In this document: piece after piece, positions 4,246 through 10,219 of the stretch | How the letters are laid out: each line of letters starts with the position of its first letter | Position numbering within the stretch: position 1 is the stretch's first letter | DNA from: Candidatus Izemoplasma sp. | GTDB taxonomy: Bacteria > Bacillota_I > Bacilli_A > Izemoplasmatales > Izemoplasmataceae | Assembly (NCBI GenBank): GCA_007132465.1 | Contig: SLOP01000032.1 | Span: 1 to 48,196, forward strand | Direction of reading: 5' to 3' | Length of the DNA: 48,196 nucleotides | Translations under genes and position numbers: made by a program | Notes under the pieces: generated by a model | The model's input: the letters and a program-made list of their open reading frames with translations, nothing else | The model's database searches: none | Told to the model about the DNA's origin: nothing

Positions 4246-4321
4246 GCGTTTCATCTCCTTATATATTTTTATGATATTCCTTTGTCGTTGTGATGTGTTA
4301 CTCAGCTGCTGATATCGCTAT

Positions 4322-4423
4322 CTAGCATTGGTAACGCGAATCGCACATTTTTTCTTGACGCTTGTCTTCTTGTATTTTTTGTTTTTCGCACCAATAGGTC
4401 ATTTGCATGTGATAGGTAGACAT
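4322..4423 (-). CDS. Candidate microprotein D, 33 aa, Cys/Met rich
   Basis: A short frame starting MSTYHMQMTYWCEKQK and ending in CDSRYQC. AAGGAGG lies 7 nt before the ATG, a near-perfect ribosome site. It has three Cys, four Met including the start, a strongly charged Gln/Lys/Glu middle that looks helical, and no membrane segment. The Cys spacing (12, 27, 33) could suit metal binding or disulfides, but no known family is recognised. It lies between the repeated tiny ORFs and the SHOCT-like gene on the same strand. Confidence 0.55.
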   Translation of the reverse strand: MSTYHMQMTYWCEKQKIQEDKRQEKMCDSRYQC

Positions 4424-4450
4424 CCCCATTCCTCCTTCGTTCATTATTGC

Positions 4451-4528
4451 TTAATGGCGTTTTTTCATGATGGGTTTCGTTTGGTCACTTTTAATCTTTT
4501 CATAGGTTCTAATCATCGCTTCGTTCAT
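4451..4528 (-). CDS. Candidate microprotein C, 25 aa, diverged paralogue of A and B
   Basis: It starts MNEAMIRTYEKIK, identical over 13 residues to microproteins A and B, then diverges to a basic tail (SDQTKPIMKKRH). AAGGAGG stands before the ATG at the same spacing as in B. Synonymous changes in the shared part (ATT for ATC, GAA for GAG, AAG for AAA) suggest that the protein sequence rather than the DNA has been kept. Confidence 0.6.
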   Translation of the reverse strand: MNEAMIRTYEKIKSDQTKPIMKKRH

Positions 4529-4715
4529 GGGTGAATCCTCCTTGGTTTTTGTCGTTATCGGGTTTTCCGGATGGCTTCGTTGGTTTTGATTTTCTCATAG
4601 GTTCTGATCATCGCTTCGTTCATGGGTGAATCCTCCTTGGTTTTTGTCGTTATCGGATTTTCCGGATGGCTTCGTTGGTTTTGATTTTCTCATAGGTTCT
4701 GATCATCGCTTCGTT
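4526..4715. repeat. Two 95-bp direct tandem repeats, plus a partial third
   Basis: 4526-4620 and 4621-4715 are identical except for one base (G/A near 4561/4656). Part of a third, diverged unit continues at about 4494-4525. Each unit holds one complete tiny ORF with ribosome site and stop. The near-identity points to a recent duplication or gene conversion. Confidence 0.95.
4555..4623 (-). CDS. Candidate microprotein B, 22 aa (tandem copy)
   Basis: It begins MNEAMIRTYEKIKTNEAIRK and ends TR, with a predicted basic amphipathic helix (Met, Ile, Tyr, Ile on one face). AAGGAGG is 7-8 nt upstream. It differs from microprotein A by one residue near the C-terminus (Thr for Ile). It is encoded by one of two near-identical 95-bp repeats, each bringing its own ribosome site and stop codon. 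No family is recognised. Confidence 0.6.
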   Translation of the reverse strand: MNEAMIRTYEKIKTNEAIRKTR

Positions 4716-4718
4716 CAT
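4650..4718 (-). CDS. Candidate microprotein A, 22 aa (tandem copy)
   Basis: Same protein as B except for Ile in place of Thr near the end. AAAGGAGG precedes the ATG. This is the first complete repeat copy behind the promoter. Its upstream ribosome-site region differs from the other copies, which marks the edge of the duplication. Confidence 0.6.
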   Translation of the reverse strand: MNEAMIRTYEKIKTNEAIRKIR

Positions 4719-4753
4719 GGGTGGGTCCTCCTTTAGTTTGTGAGTGTCGTTGG

Positions 4754-4825
4754 TTATCGATTCATCGGACTTTGTGTTGGACGTCGGCTTATGAAGATCG
4801 ATCGTTGATTTGATTGTGTTTTCAT
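4754..4825 (-). CDS. Possible leader microprotein E, 23 aa
   Basis: The first ATG frame behind the promoter, starting MKTQSNQRSIFISRR: basic, Ser/Arg/Gln rich, unrelated to A-C. AAGGG lies about 11 nt before the ATG, which is weaker than for the others. It could be a leader peptide or a chance frame. Confidence 0.35.
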   Translation of the reverse strand: MKTQSNQRSIFISRRPTQSPMNR

Positions 4826-4904
4826 TTCGGCATCATCCCTTAATTTAATTAATCTATTTATTGTCTAAATTGATTTTTGAATTAATTTTCTTGATTACAA
4901 CTTC

Positions 4905-4933
4905 ATGATATAGCATTAATTTTAATATGTCAA
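4905..4933 (-). promoter_or_regulatory. Strong sigma-A promoter with A-tract (UP-like) upstream region
   Basis: The minus strand has TTGACA, exactly 17 bp, TATCAT, with A-rich tracts immediately upstream of the -35 (about 4934-4975). The surrounding block 4843-5003 is very AT-rich against a roughly 50% GC background. It would drive microproteins E, A, B, C, D and the SHOCT-like gene. Confidence 0.8.
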
Positions 4934-5006
4934 TGGTTTTTTTAATATTTTTAACCTTTTTTTTAATTTTATTAATTTATACATTGATTTTGTTAATCTA
5001 ATTACG

Positions 5007-7577: not shown

Positions 7578-8190
7578 GGGTTTCCTCCTCTATGCCGTGG
7601 CGAATGATATCGATAGTTTGACGGGCCATGGTTTGCATCTCATCGACGCTTTTTCCCGCCAAAAAGGCATCCATAATATCGATTGACTGAAAACGGTAAA
7701 GCAAACGCGAAAGCGCCAAGGTGTTCACGTCGTTGCGGATGAAGCCGGCTGCTTGATCCTTGCGCAAATACGTCTCAAGTAAAGTCACGCTTCGATGTTC
7801 AAAATCTCGCCATGCGCTTTGCATGCCGGGATCTCTTGAGGCGAAGAAGCCGACCCAGACGGCCACGTAATCGGGATGTGCTTTCGCAAAGGCGATGCCC
7901 GCATCAACCATGGCATAATACAAGTCGAAAAACGGTTCTTGTCCAATGCGTTTAATCAATCCATCCAAATACGCCATCTTTTTGTGTTGCGCTTCGTCGA
8001 TGACGGCTAAGAAAGCGTCGTATTTATGGTTAAAATACTGATAGAAGCTGCCGCGTGGTATGCCGCACGTTTTCACGATGTCGGCCACGGTCGCTTTGTC
8101 GTATCCCAAACGGGTAAATACGGTCGTTAATCCTGCGATAACCTGTTGCTTTTTCGCGGGTTTTAACCGCCTGAATGTCTCCCTGGGCAT
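7555..8190 (-). CDS. TetR/AcrR family repressor of the ABC exporter operon
   Basis: 211 residues. The N-terminal helix-turn-helix (TVADIVKTCGIPRGSFYQYF, about residues 37-56) is the classic TetR_N motif, and the rest is a helical ligand domain. It is first in the operon, directly behind a promoter containing a perfect 16-bp palindrome, so autoregulation and control of the exporter by a bound small molecule is the natural reading. The inducer cannot be guessed from sequence. Confidence 0.9.
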   Translation of the reverse strand: MPRETFRRLKPAKKQQVIAGLTTVFTRLGYDKATVADIVKTCGIPRGSFYQYFNHKYDAFLAVIDEAQHKKMAYLDGLIKRIGQEPFFDLYYAMVDAGIAFAKAHPDYVAVWVGFFASRDPGMQSAWRDFEHRSVTLLETYLRKDQAAGFIRNDVNTLALSRLLYRFQSIDIMDAFLAGKSVDEMQTMARQTIDIIRHGIEEETHGKNTGI

Positions 8191-8207
8191 GACATCACCT
8201 CACCTCG

Positions 8208-8237
8208 ATTATGACACATGTGTCATTTTTTTGTCAA
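8208..8237 (-). promoter_or_regulatory. tetR-ABC promoter with embedded operator palindrome
   Basis: TTGACA (8232-8237), an 18-bp spacer, CATAAT (8208-8213). The perfect palindrome ATGACACATGTGTCAT (8211-8226) fills most of the spacer and runs into the -10, so a bound TetR dimer would block RNA polymerase. The -35 abuts the T tract of the uvrB terminator. Confidence 0.85.
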
Positions 8238-8271
8238 GAAAAATCCGCGCGTCACATGGTCGCGCGGATTT
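8236..8271 (-). terminator. Intrinsic terminator of uvrB
   Basis: AAATCCGCGCG ... CGCGCGGATTT with a 9-nt loop, then TTC TTG on the minus strand. The stop codon and last codons of uvrB lie inside the hairpin. Confidence 0.8.
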
Positions 8272-10219
8272 CAAGGATTAAATCGCGATATTCAGCCGCG
8301 TGTTCGAAATCCAGTTCACGCGCGGCTTTGTTCATGTCTTTTGTTAACTCATCAATCAACTTCGTCTTCTCGGCGCGGGAAAGTGTGGATAAATCCTTCA
8401 CCGCGTCATCAACGACTGCTTCAAGTTTCACACGGATGCTGTCACGCACGCCTTTTTTAATCGTGGTGGGAACGATGCCGAAGCGCTCGTTGTGAGTCTG
8501 TTGAACTGCGCGACGTCGGTGCGTCTCGTCAATAGCAAACTGCATCGCTTCGGTCACTTTATCGGCGTATAAGACGACCTTGCCATCGACGTTTCGTGCC
8601 GCGCGGCCAATCGTTTGAATCAAACTGGTCGCCGAACGTAAAAATCCTTGCTTGTCAGCATCCAAAATGGCGATAAACGAAACTTCGGGAAGGTCGAGGC
8701 CCTCCCTGAGTAGGTTGATGCCCACAAGCACATCATAGACGCCGAGACGCAAATCACGAATGATTTCGATACGCTCTAGGCTCTTGATTTCCGAATGCAA
8801 GTAGGCGACCTTTATGCCGAGTTCTTTTAAGTAACTGGTCAAGTCCTCAGCCATCTTGATGGTTAGGGTCGTGATTAAGGTCCGTTGTTTGTTCTCAATG
8901 CGGCGATACATTTCAGCCACCAAATGGTCGATTTGGCCATCTTTCTTTTGAACCTCGACCACAGGATCAAGCAGCCCGGTGGGGCGAATGATCTGTTCAA
9001 CAACATACGGCGTGCGCTCAAGTTCATAGTCACCCGGGGTGGCGCTGACGTAAACGGCTTGATGGATTTTCTCATTAAACTCCTCGAAATTCAGCGGTCG
9101 GTTGTCTAGCGCGCTGGGCAGACGGAATCCGTAGTCGACGAGGGTTTGTTTGCGTGAGCGGTCGCCGTTAAACATGCCCCGTACTTGCGGTAAGGTAACG
9201 TGGGATTCGTCGACCACGAGCAAATAATCATCCCCGAAAAAATCCATTAAAGTCGACGGGGTCTCCCCGGCTTCTCGCAAGCTCAAATGGCGAGAATAGT
9301 TCTCCACCCCTTTACACGTCCCGATTTCTTTTAGCATCTCAATGTCGTAATTGGTGCGTTGACGGAGCCGCTCGGCCTCAACAAGGTTTCCCGCTTGTTC
9401 AAAATACGCAAGTTGTGCTTCGAGTTCTTGTTCGATGCGCTGGATGCCTTCGTCGATTTTAGCTTTATTCGTCACAAACTGGGTTGCTGGAAACAACGTC
9501 ATGACAGTGTACTCTTCCAAAATTTCGCCGCTCACCACATCGAACAAACGAATGCGTTCAATCTCGTCGTCGAAAAACTCAACGCGAATCGCTTGGTCTT
9601 TTTTATACGTTGGCAGGATTTCAACAACGTCGCCTTTAACGCGAAACGACCCGCGTTCAAAATCAATCTCGTTGCGCACAAAAAGCATGTCGACGAGTTT
9701 GTTTAACAGCGCGTCACGATCCATGTTGTCGCCTTGACGTAGCGTTAAGGTGGCGTCACGGTAATCCTCGGGATCGCCAATCCCATAGATGCACGACACG
9801 CTCGCCACGACGATGACGTCGCGACGTTCAAGAAGCGATGCGGTGGCGCTGTGGCGCATTTCATCGATTTCATCGTTGGTCTGGGCATCTTTTTCAATGT
9901 ATAAATCCCGACTCGGGACGTAGGCTTCGGGTTGATAGTAATCGTAATAGGAAATAAAATATTCCACGCGGTTGTCGGGAAAGAACTCTTTAAACTCTGA
10001 GTACAGCTGCCCGGCCAGGGTTTTGTTGTGGGCGAGCACGAGCACCGGTTTGTCTAAATGTTGAATCACGTTGCTCATGGTGAACGTTTTCCCCGTGCCC
10101 GTCGCGCCCAAAAGCACAACCTCTTTTTCACCGTTTTCAATGTGTTCAACAATCCGTTTGATAGCCGCGGCTTGGTCGCCTTTTGGTTGGTACTCGGTAC
10201 GTAGTTTGAAACTACTCAT
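8252..10219 (-). CDS. uvrB: Excinuclease ABC subunit B
   Basis: 655 residues, the normal UvrB length. Walker A is [12 protein letters not shown]; the damage-probing beta-hairpin region [21 protein letters not shown] is intact; [11 protein letters not shown] is helicase motif [22 protein letters not shown] and QTIGRAARN are motifs V-VI; and the C-terminal UVR domain ([21 protein letters not shown]) binds UvrC. It is a core nucleotide excision repair helicase loaded by UvrA, which is not in this window. It is transcribed alone, divergent from the radical SAM gene, from an extended -10 promoter. No LexA-type box was seen in its short leader. Confidence 0.98.

Follow-up and report, generated by a model that had tools for sequence, protein, structure and literature searches.

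A run of very short open reading frames (ORFs) directly upstream of a SHOCT-like gene in a Candidatus Izemoplasma genome raises two questions: whether such frames are genes and what their products would do beside this particular neighbor. The frames lie in the window, by which we mean the whole stretch of 48,196 nucleotides that was analysed, and follow the order promoter, leader ORF, A, B, C, D, SHOCT-like gene and terminator on the minus strand (Table 1). The original prediction described four frames with strong Shine-Dalgarno (SD) sequences and a weaker frame of 23 codons, all behind one promoter and before one terminator, and this layout was borne out in its coordinates, SDs, promoter match and terminator. 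The common N-terminus that it reported for A, B and C was likewise found, since MNEAMIRTYEKIK is present in all three and the copy in C carries synonymous differences. The SD of A to D is AAGGAGG at 7-8 nt from the start, and a hairpin with a T-run directly follows the stop of the SHOCT-like gene on its 3' side. The start of D was set at 4423 rather than 4444 because of SD spacing and homologues, and 4245 is the most likely start of the SHOCT-like gene, since an ATG at 4254 overlaps the gene's SD. As A and B arose by a recent tandem duplication of 95 bp, their match alone is weak evidence; the proof that these ORFs are genes comes from sequence comparison with relatives.

Table 1. Features of the micro-ORF operon in the window.
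Feature	Position	Strand	Remarks
Leader micro-ORF, 23 aa, MKTQSNQRSIFISRRPTQSPMNR	4825-4754	minus	weak SD; homologue MKKQQNPRSIFNSQRPTQSPMNR in L032
Micro-ORF A, 22 aa, MNEAMIRTYEKIKTNEAIRKIR	4718-4650	minus	AAGGAGG SD
Micro-ORF B, 22 aa	4623-4555	minus	recent tandem copy of A (95-bp repeat)
Micro-ORF C, 25 aa	4528-4451	minus	N-terminus as in A and B, C-terminus different
Micro-ORF D, 33 aa, MSTYHMQMTYWCEKQKIQEDKRQEKMCDSRYQC	4423-4322	minus	homologues in L032, L005 and L015
SHOCT-like gene, 127 aa	4245-3862	minus	N-terminal SHOCT-like_DUF2089-C domain and unnamed conserved C-terminal domain
Sigma-70-type promoter, TTGACA-17-TATCAT	4933-4905	minus	11 of 12 consensus positions matched; kept at the array loci of relatives
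Tandem TYAA boxes, alternating 9 and 12 bp (21-bp period)	4840..5001	minus	15 boxes, on both sides of the promoter
Rho-independent terminator, AAAAGACCGCA-ttg-TGCGGTCTTTTTTT	3855-3830	minus	read by eye; not picked up by a scan

A strong-SD ORF was defined as one of 20-45 codons with AGGAGG or AAGGAG 5-10 nt from an ATG. Both strands of the 48 kb contain only five of these, four of which are A to D, and among 5000 dinucleotide shuffles of positions 4255-4933 no such ORF was found in 4968, one in 32 and two in none. A genome of the same genus whose SHOCT-like protein is 70% identical (G002, locus L032) has seven such tiny ORFs, namely a homologue of the leader, a variant MTETMTRTYEKIK ORF, four MNEAMIRTYEKIK ORFs and a homologue of D, and frames, SDs and peptide sequence are kept between the two loci. 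Because copies in tandem in one genome have been partly homogenised and do not count as independent, selection was judged from comparison between genomes. The matched ORFs of the window and G002 gave a pooled pN of 0.136 and pS of 0.52, indicative of purifying selection, and their 13 shared first codons showed 0 nonsynonymous changes at 33 sites against 4 synonymous changes at 6 sites. For the leader ORF by itself (pS 0.17, pN 0.12) selection was not clearly visible. Twelve further ORF comparisons in seven other genome pairs gave a pooled pN of 0.18 and pS of 0.53. Neither unconserved frames nor a dN/dS near 1, which the original prediction had named as observations against it, was found. Frames, SDs and position are kept throughout the family and several genome pairs show purifying selection, so the original claim of real microproteins is strongly supported, and we are nearly certain that the operon encodes translated microproteins.

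The SHOCT-like protein was then used as the anchor for a search of 90 genomes of the order, in which two forms of the locus were recognised; the counts are approximate because they depend on our own ORF filter and some genomes are incomplete. The array form, with 2-6 diverged tiny ORFs before a SHOCT-like paralogue located away from DUF2089, occurs in 19 genomes of the window's family. The single-copy form, in which DUF2089 and the SHOCT-like gene enclose exactly one ORF (34-42 codons), occurs in 17 genomes from five other genera of that family. The copy number of the micro-ORFs varies between genomes, and in all 19 array and 17 single-copy genomes they stand immediately upstream of the SHOCT-like gene. 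The two arrangements exclude each other, since the DUF2089 locus carries no micro-ORF in any of the 16 array genomes in which both loci could be read; there, about 30 nt at most separate the end of DUF2089 from the SHOCT-like start, and a micro-ORF would not fit. No significant similarity between single-copy and array microproteins was detected by hhalign, and it is their position, size, motif and mutual exclusion that speak for a common origin. A second family with SHOCT-like matches (f3) had no micro-ORF at the loci examined, a third (f2) gave no SHOCT-like match, and none was found in genus g5 of the window's own family, whose genomes are about 1 Mb. One contig (L051, PULU01000115.1) is titled 'Thermoplasmata archaeon' and is probably a binning error, because its SHOCT-like protein is identical to that of a Mollicutes metagenome-assembled genome (L053).

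The 88 distinct microproteins have a median length of 33 aa, a mean net charge of +2.6 and a mean GRAVY of -1.05, and Gly, Pro and Trp are scarce in them. Their charge is unevenly distributed, with -0.74 in the first ten residues and +3.0 in the last ten, and the C-terminal charge (+2.9) exceeds that of shuffles (+0.9). The motif Y[EDQNT]xx[KR] was found within residues 5-20 in 40 of 92 microproteins versus 5.8 in shuffles, a count inflated by kinship. AlphaFold2 modelled the single-copy form as one helix (pLDDT 71). Over the first 16 residues, the helical hydrophobic moment was not above that of shuffles (mean z -0.2), which leaves an amphipathic helix unsupported. Thus, of the amphipathic basic helices originally proposed, the helix (for the single-copy form) and the basic C-termini agree with the data and the amphipathy does not. 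Searches of PHROGs and, for the window peptides only, Pfam and NCBIfam returned no match, in line with the earlier impression that no described family is represented, and by hhalign the microproteins mimic neither DUF2089 nor the SHOCT-like protein to a significant degree.

The SHOCT-like protein of the window matches PF22746 (SHOCT-like_DUF2089-C) with an E-value of 3.9e-06 and 26.7 bits, just under the cut-off of 27, and the second SHOCT-like paralogue of the same genome scores 35.1 bits, above the cut-off. The C-terminal domain of the window's protein, SSDGDKVNVQVP...ESADGDTVKVYV, is conserved and unnamed. In G012 (L092, 1995-2294), four micro-ORFs precede a protein that has this C-terminal domain and does not match SHOCT. 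The array-linked protein of G005 (L081) likewise keeps the C-terminal domain and the micro-ORFs, and by eye its N-terminus is not recognisable as SHOCT-like. Since both loci have lost a recognisable SHOCT domain and retained the other two elements, the C-terminal domain is more likely to be the conserved partner of the micro-ORFs. The AlphaFold2 model of the SHOCT-like protein is of low confidence (pLDDT 62.6); Foldseek gave no significant match to it, the best being a peptide-binding CCT domain (E 0.15), a weak resemblance that may serve as a lead only, and a sequence search for structural relatives returned chance matches.

The array promoter sits in a stretch of 83% AT that is filled with TYAA boxes at alternating distances of 9 and 12 bp. 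Box distances of 9, 12, 21, 30 and 42 are enriched in the window alone (z 4.6-10.6), and over 14 array promoters, which are related by descent, the same distances are enriched 8- to 16-fold above dinucleotide shuffles (z 11.8-26). DUF2089 operon promoters follow the same box grammar. In the 1.43-Mb genome of the window, the exact pattern TYAA-N5-TYAA-N8-TYAA-N5-TYAA has just two occurrences, one at the array promoter and one at that of the DUF2089 operon on another contig (C5), and the reversed four-box pattern used as a control does not occur. With one mismatch allowed, further boxes within the array were recovered along with eight isolated sites, scattered over the rest of the genome, that do not form box arrays, and no further regulon member with the exact four-box pattern was found in this genome. 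A single-copy genome (G031) has an additional perfect four-box site between a minus-strand and a plus-strand gene (C2:154231; L130 around 1501), possibly marking a further regulon member. The genome of the window has one DUF2089 gene, which lies at the C5 locus outside the array operon, and its product scores above the cut-off for PF22747 (zinc ribbon) and PF09862 (HTH) and below it for PF22746 (20.6 bits). Based on these data, the tandem TYAA boxes very probably place the array operon under joint control with the genome's only DUF2089 operon, and by association the DUF2089 zinc-ribbon/HTH/SHOCT protein is probably the regulator that binds them, being the best candidate for that role. The simplest reading is one regulator that would govern the array as well as its own operon.

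This arrangement resembles the envelope-stress neighborhoods in a survey of the PSP system, where, in the portion of the text available to us, a DUF2089 zinc ribbon-HTH-SHOCT regulator appears with SHOCT-like partners (PMC11237479). The window's genome has such a DUF2089 operon, whose protein at C5 combines a zinc ribbon, an HTH and a SHOCT-like C-terminus below the cut-off, and its promoter boxes are those of the array. Unlike the present case, that portion describes no microproteins, second array locus or tandem 9/12-bp boxes (PMC11237479), and neither a Toastrack nor a PspC domain was identified in the array operon. The enterococcal envelope-stress effector LiaX may, going by its description, be a functional analogue of the SHOCT-like protein. 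LiaX reportedly responds to peptides in envelope stress and has distinct N- and C-terminal domains. The window's protein is only 127 aa long, and we know of no microprotein array beside liaX.

Several other explanations of the array were weighed. Because the ORFs lie between a promoter and a main gene, they could be regulatory uORFs or the by-product of a structured leader RNA, but selection on amino acids and variable copy number make this very improbable; no Rfam match was obtained and the leader folds worse than shuffles (z +1.43), so a structured leader or riboswitch was rejected. Secreted peptides are a more serious possibility. Leaderless bacteriocin clusters (bawcin, enterocin DD14 and thucin) encode short cationic leaderless peptides, sometimes in tandem and in one cluster from three tandem structural genes, together with a DUF2089 family protein and an ABC transporter (PMC10707071, PMC7332713, PMC9484092). 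The window array could by analogy produce multi-peptide leaderless bacteriocins or phenol-soluble modulin-like peptides that the neighboring ABC transporter exports, with the SHOCT-like protein as immunity protein or chaperone. Its ORFs are short, cationic, leaderless and in tandem, they directly follow genes for an ABC transporter (ATPase and permeases) with TetR, and 15 array loci have a permease homologue upstream. However, the peptides here are hydrophilic and tied to a SHOCT-like protein; their mean GRAVY of -1.05 compares with printed average hydrophobicities of +0.20 and -0.11 for the EntDD14 peptides, although the scales are perhaps not the same. They show no excess of amphipathy and hence neither the hydrophobic or amphipathic, membrane-active sequence of leaderless bacteriocins nor the strongly amphipathic hydrophobic helices of phenol-soluble modulins, the latter judged without a modulin sequence as yardstick. 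Moreover, the ABC operon ends in a terminator of its own and is served by a different promoter, where a TetR-type palindrome is present and a TYAA array absent; the permease was not found upstream of the G012 array, and single-copy forms occur in DUF2089 operons that lack it. Secretion is therefore improbable in our estimate.

Within the TetR-ABC operon, the promoter (8161-8330, minus strand) contains the palindrome ATGACACATGTGTCAT, which overlaps the -10 region and is likely a TetR operator, and with this promoter of its own the operon looks separately controlled. In the promoter regions of L063, L082, L084, L086 and L089, the inner stem and loop of the hairpin that terminates the upstream ABC operon are often formed by a TTAATNAAATTAA-like sequence, which carries the box-like motif into the hairpin. 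A heliorhodopsin gene (PF18761, E 3.2e-95) lies at 254-1063 on the minus strand of the window, and a homologue is near the array in L032.

The microproteins could instead act inside the cell on something other than the SHOCT-like protein. They may be feedback ligands of DUF2089, anti-regulators through which the regulon would respond to the state of the SHOCT-like protein. Boxes common to both promoters, a single copy directly between DUF2089 and the SHOCT-like gene, and the SHOCT-like C-terminus of the regulator itself would fit this, but profile comparison showed no mimicry of DUF2089 and the array micro-ORFs adjoin the SHOCT-like paralogue rather than DUF2089; we consider it unlikely. The basic C-termini and low hydrophobicity would also suit proteins that bind nucleic acid or the ribosome and are merely co-expressed with the SHOCT-like protein, but this leaves the constant adjacency and the exclusion pattern unexplained and seems distinctly improbable.

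We tentatively favor a stoichiometric microprotein-effector system under a DUF2089-type regulator, which as a whole has somewhat less than an even chance of being right. A single transcript would yield several small, helical, C-terminally basic proteins in molar excess over one SHOCT-like protein, an excess that is expected because each of A to D has its own strong ribosome site. The microproteins would have the SHOCT-like protein as their cognate partner, dock on its conserved C-terminal domain and control how it oligomerises or attaches to the membrane's inner face. The single-copy locus would then be the basic form of the system, and the array, which has a paralogue dedicated to it, an expanded one. 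The original suggestion that the microproteins act with the SHOCT-like protein is supported by the constant adjacency of their genes, and a stoichiometric partnership would be the most likely reading. DUF2089 and SHOCT-like domains occur in membrane-stress neighborhoods and have been proposed to anchor proteins at the inner leaflet; these contexts suggest a role perhaps in membrane stress (PMC11237479), and the low hydropathy of the microproteins counts against a place at the membrane. More speculatively, and with only a small chance of being correct, this lineage-specific and fast-diversifying helical array may be the specificity part of a SHOCT-like effector system. One effector domain would then be contested by several different small subunits, and a DUF2089-type regulator would spread over boxes set in helical phase (10.5 bp on average). 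To our knowledge, no bacterial system has a swappable microprotein repertoire of this kind.

A literature search on tandem microproteins and on SHOCT with small-protein operons, mostly outside subscription journals, returned nothing relevant, and neither the microproteins nor the two-locus circuit was found described there. The array and its relatives constitute a new, rapidly evolving microprotein family, and the two loci a regulon. Gene callers easily overlook proteins of 22-40 residues. A whole family of them, under clear selection and variable in copy number, is linked here to a defined DNA element and, in 36 genomes, to one effector gene. For DUF2089, an uncharacterised regulator, this provides a concrete candidate for its binding site and its target, and it allows direct tests of what SHOCT-like proteins do.
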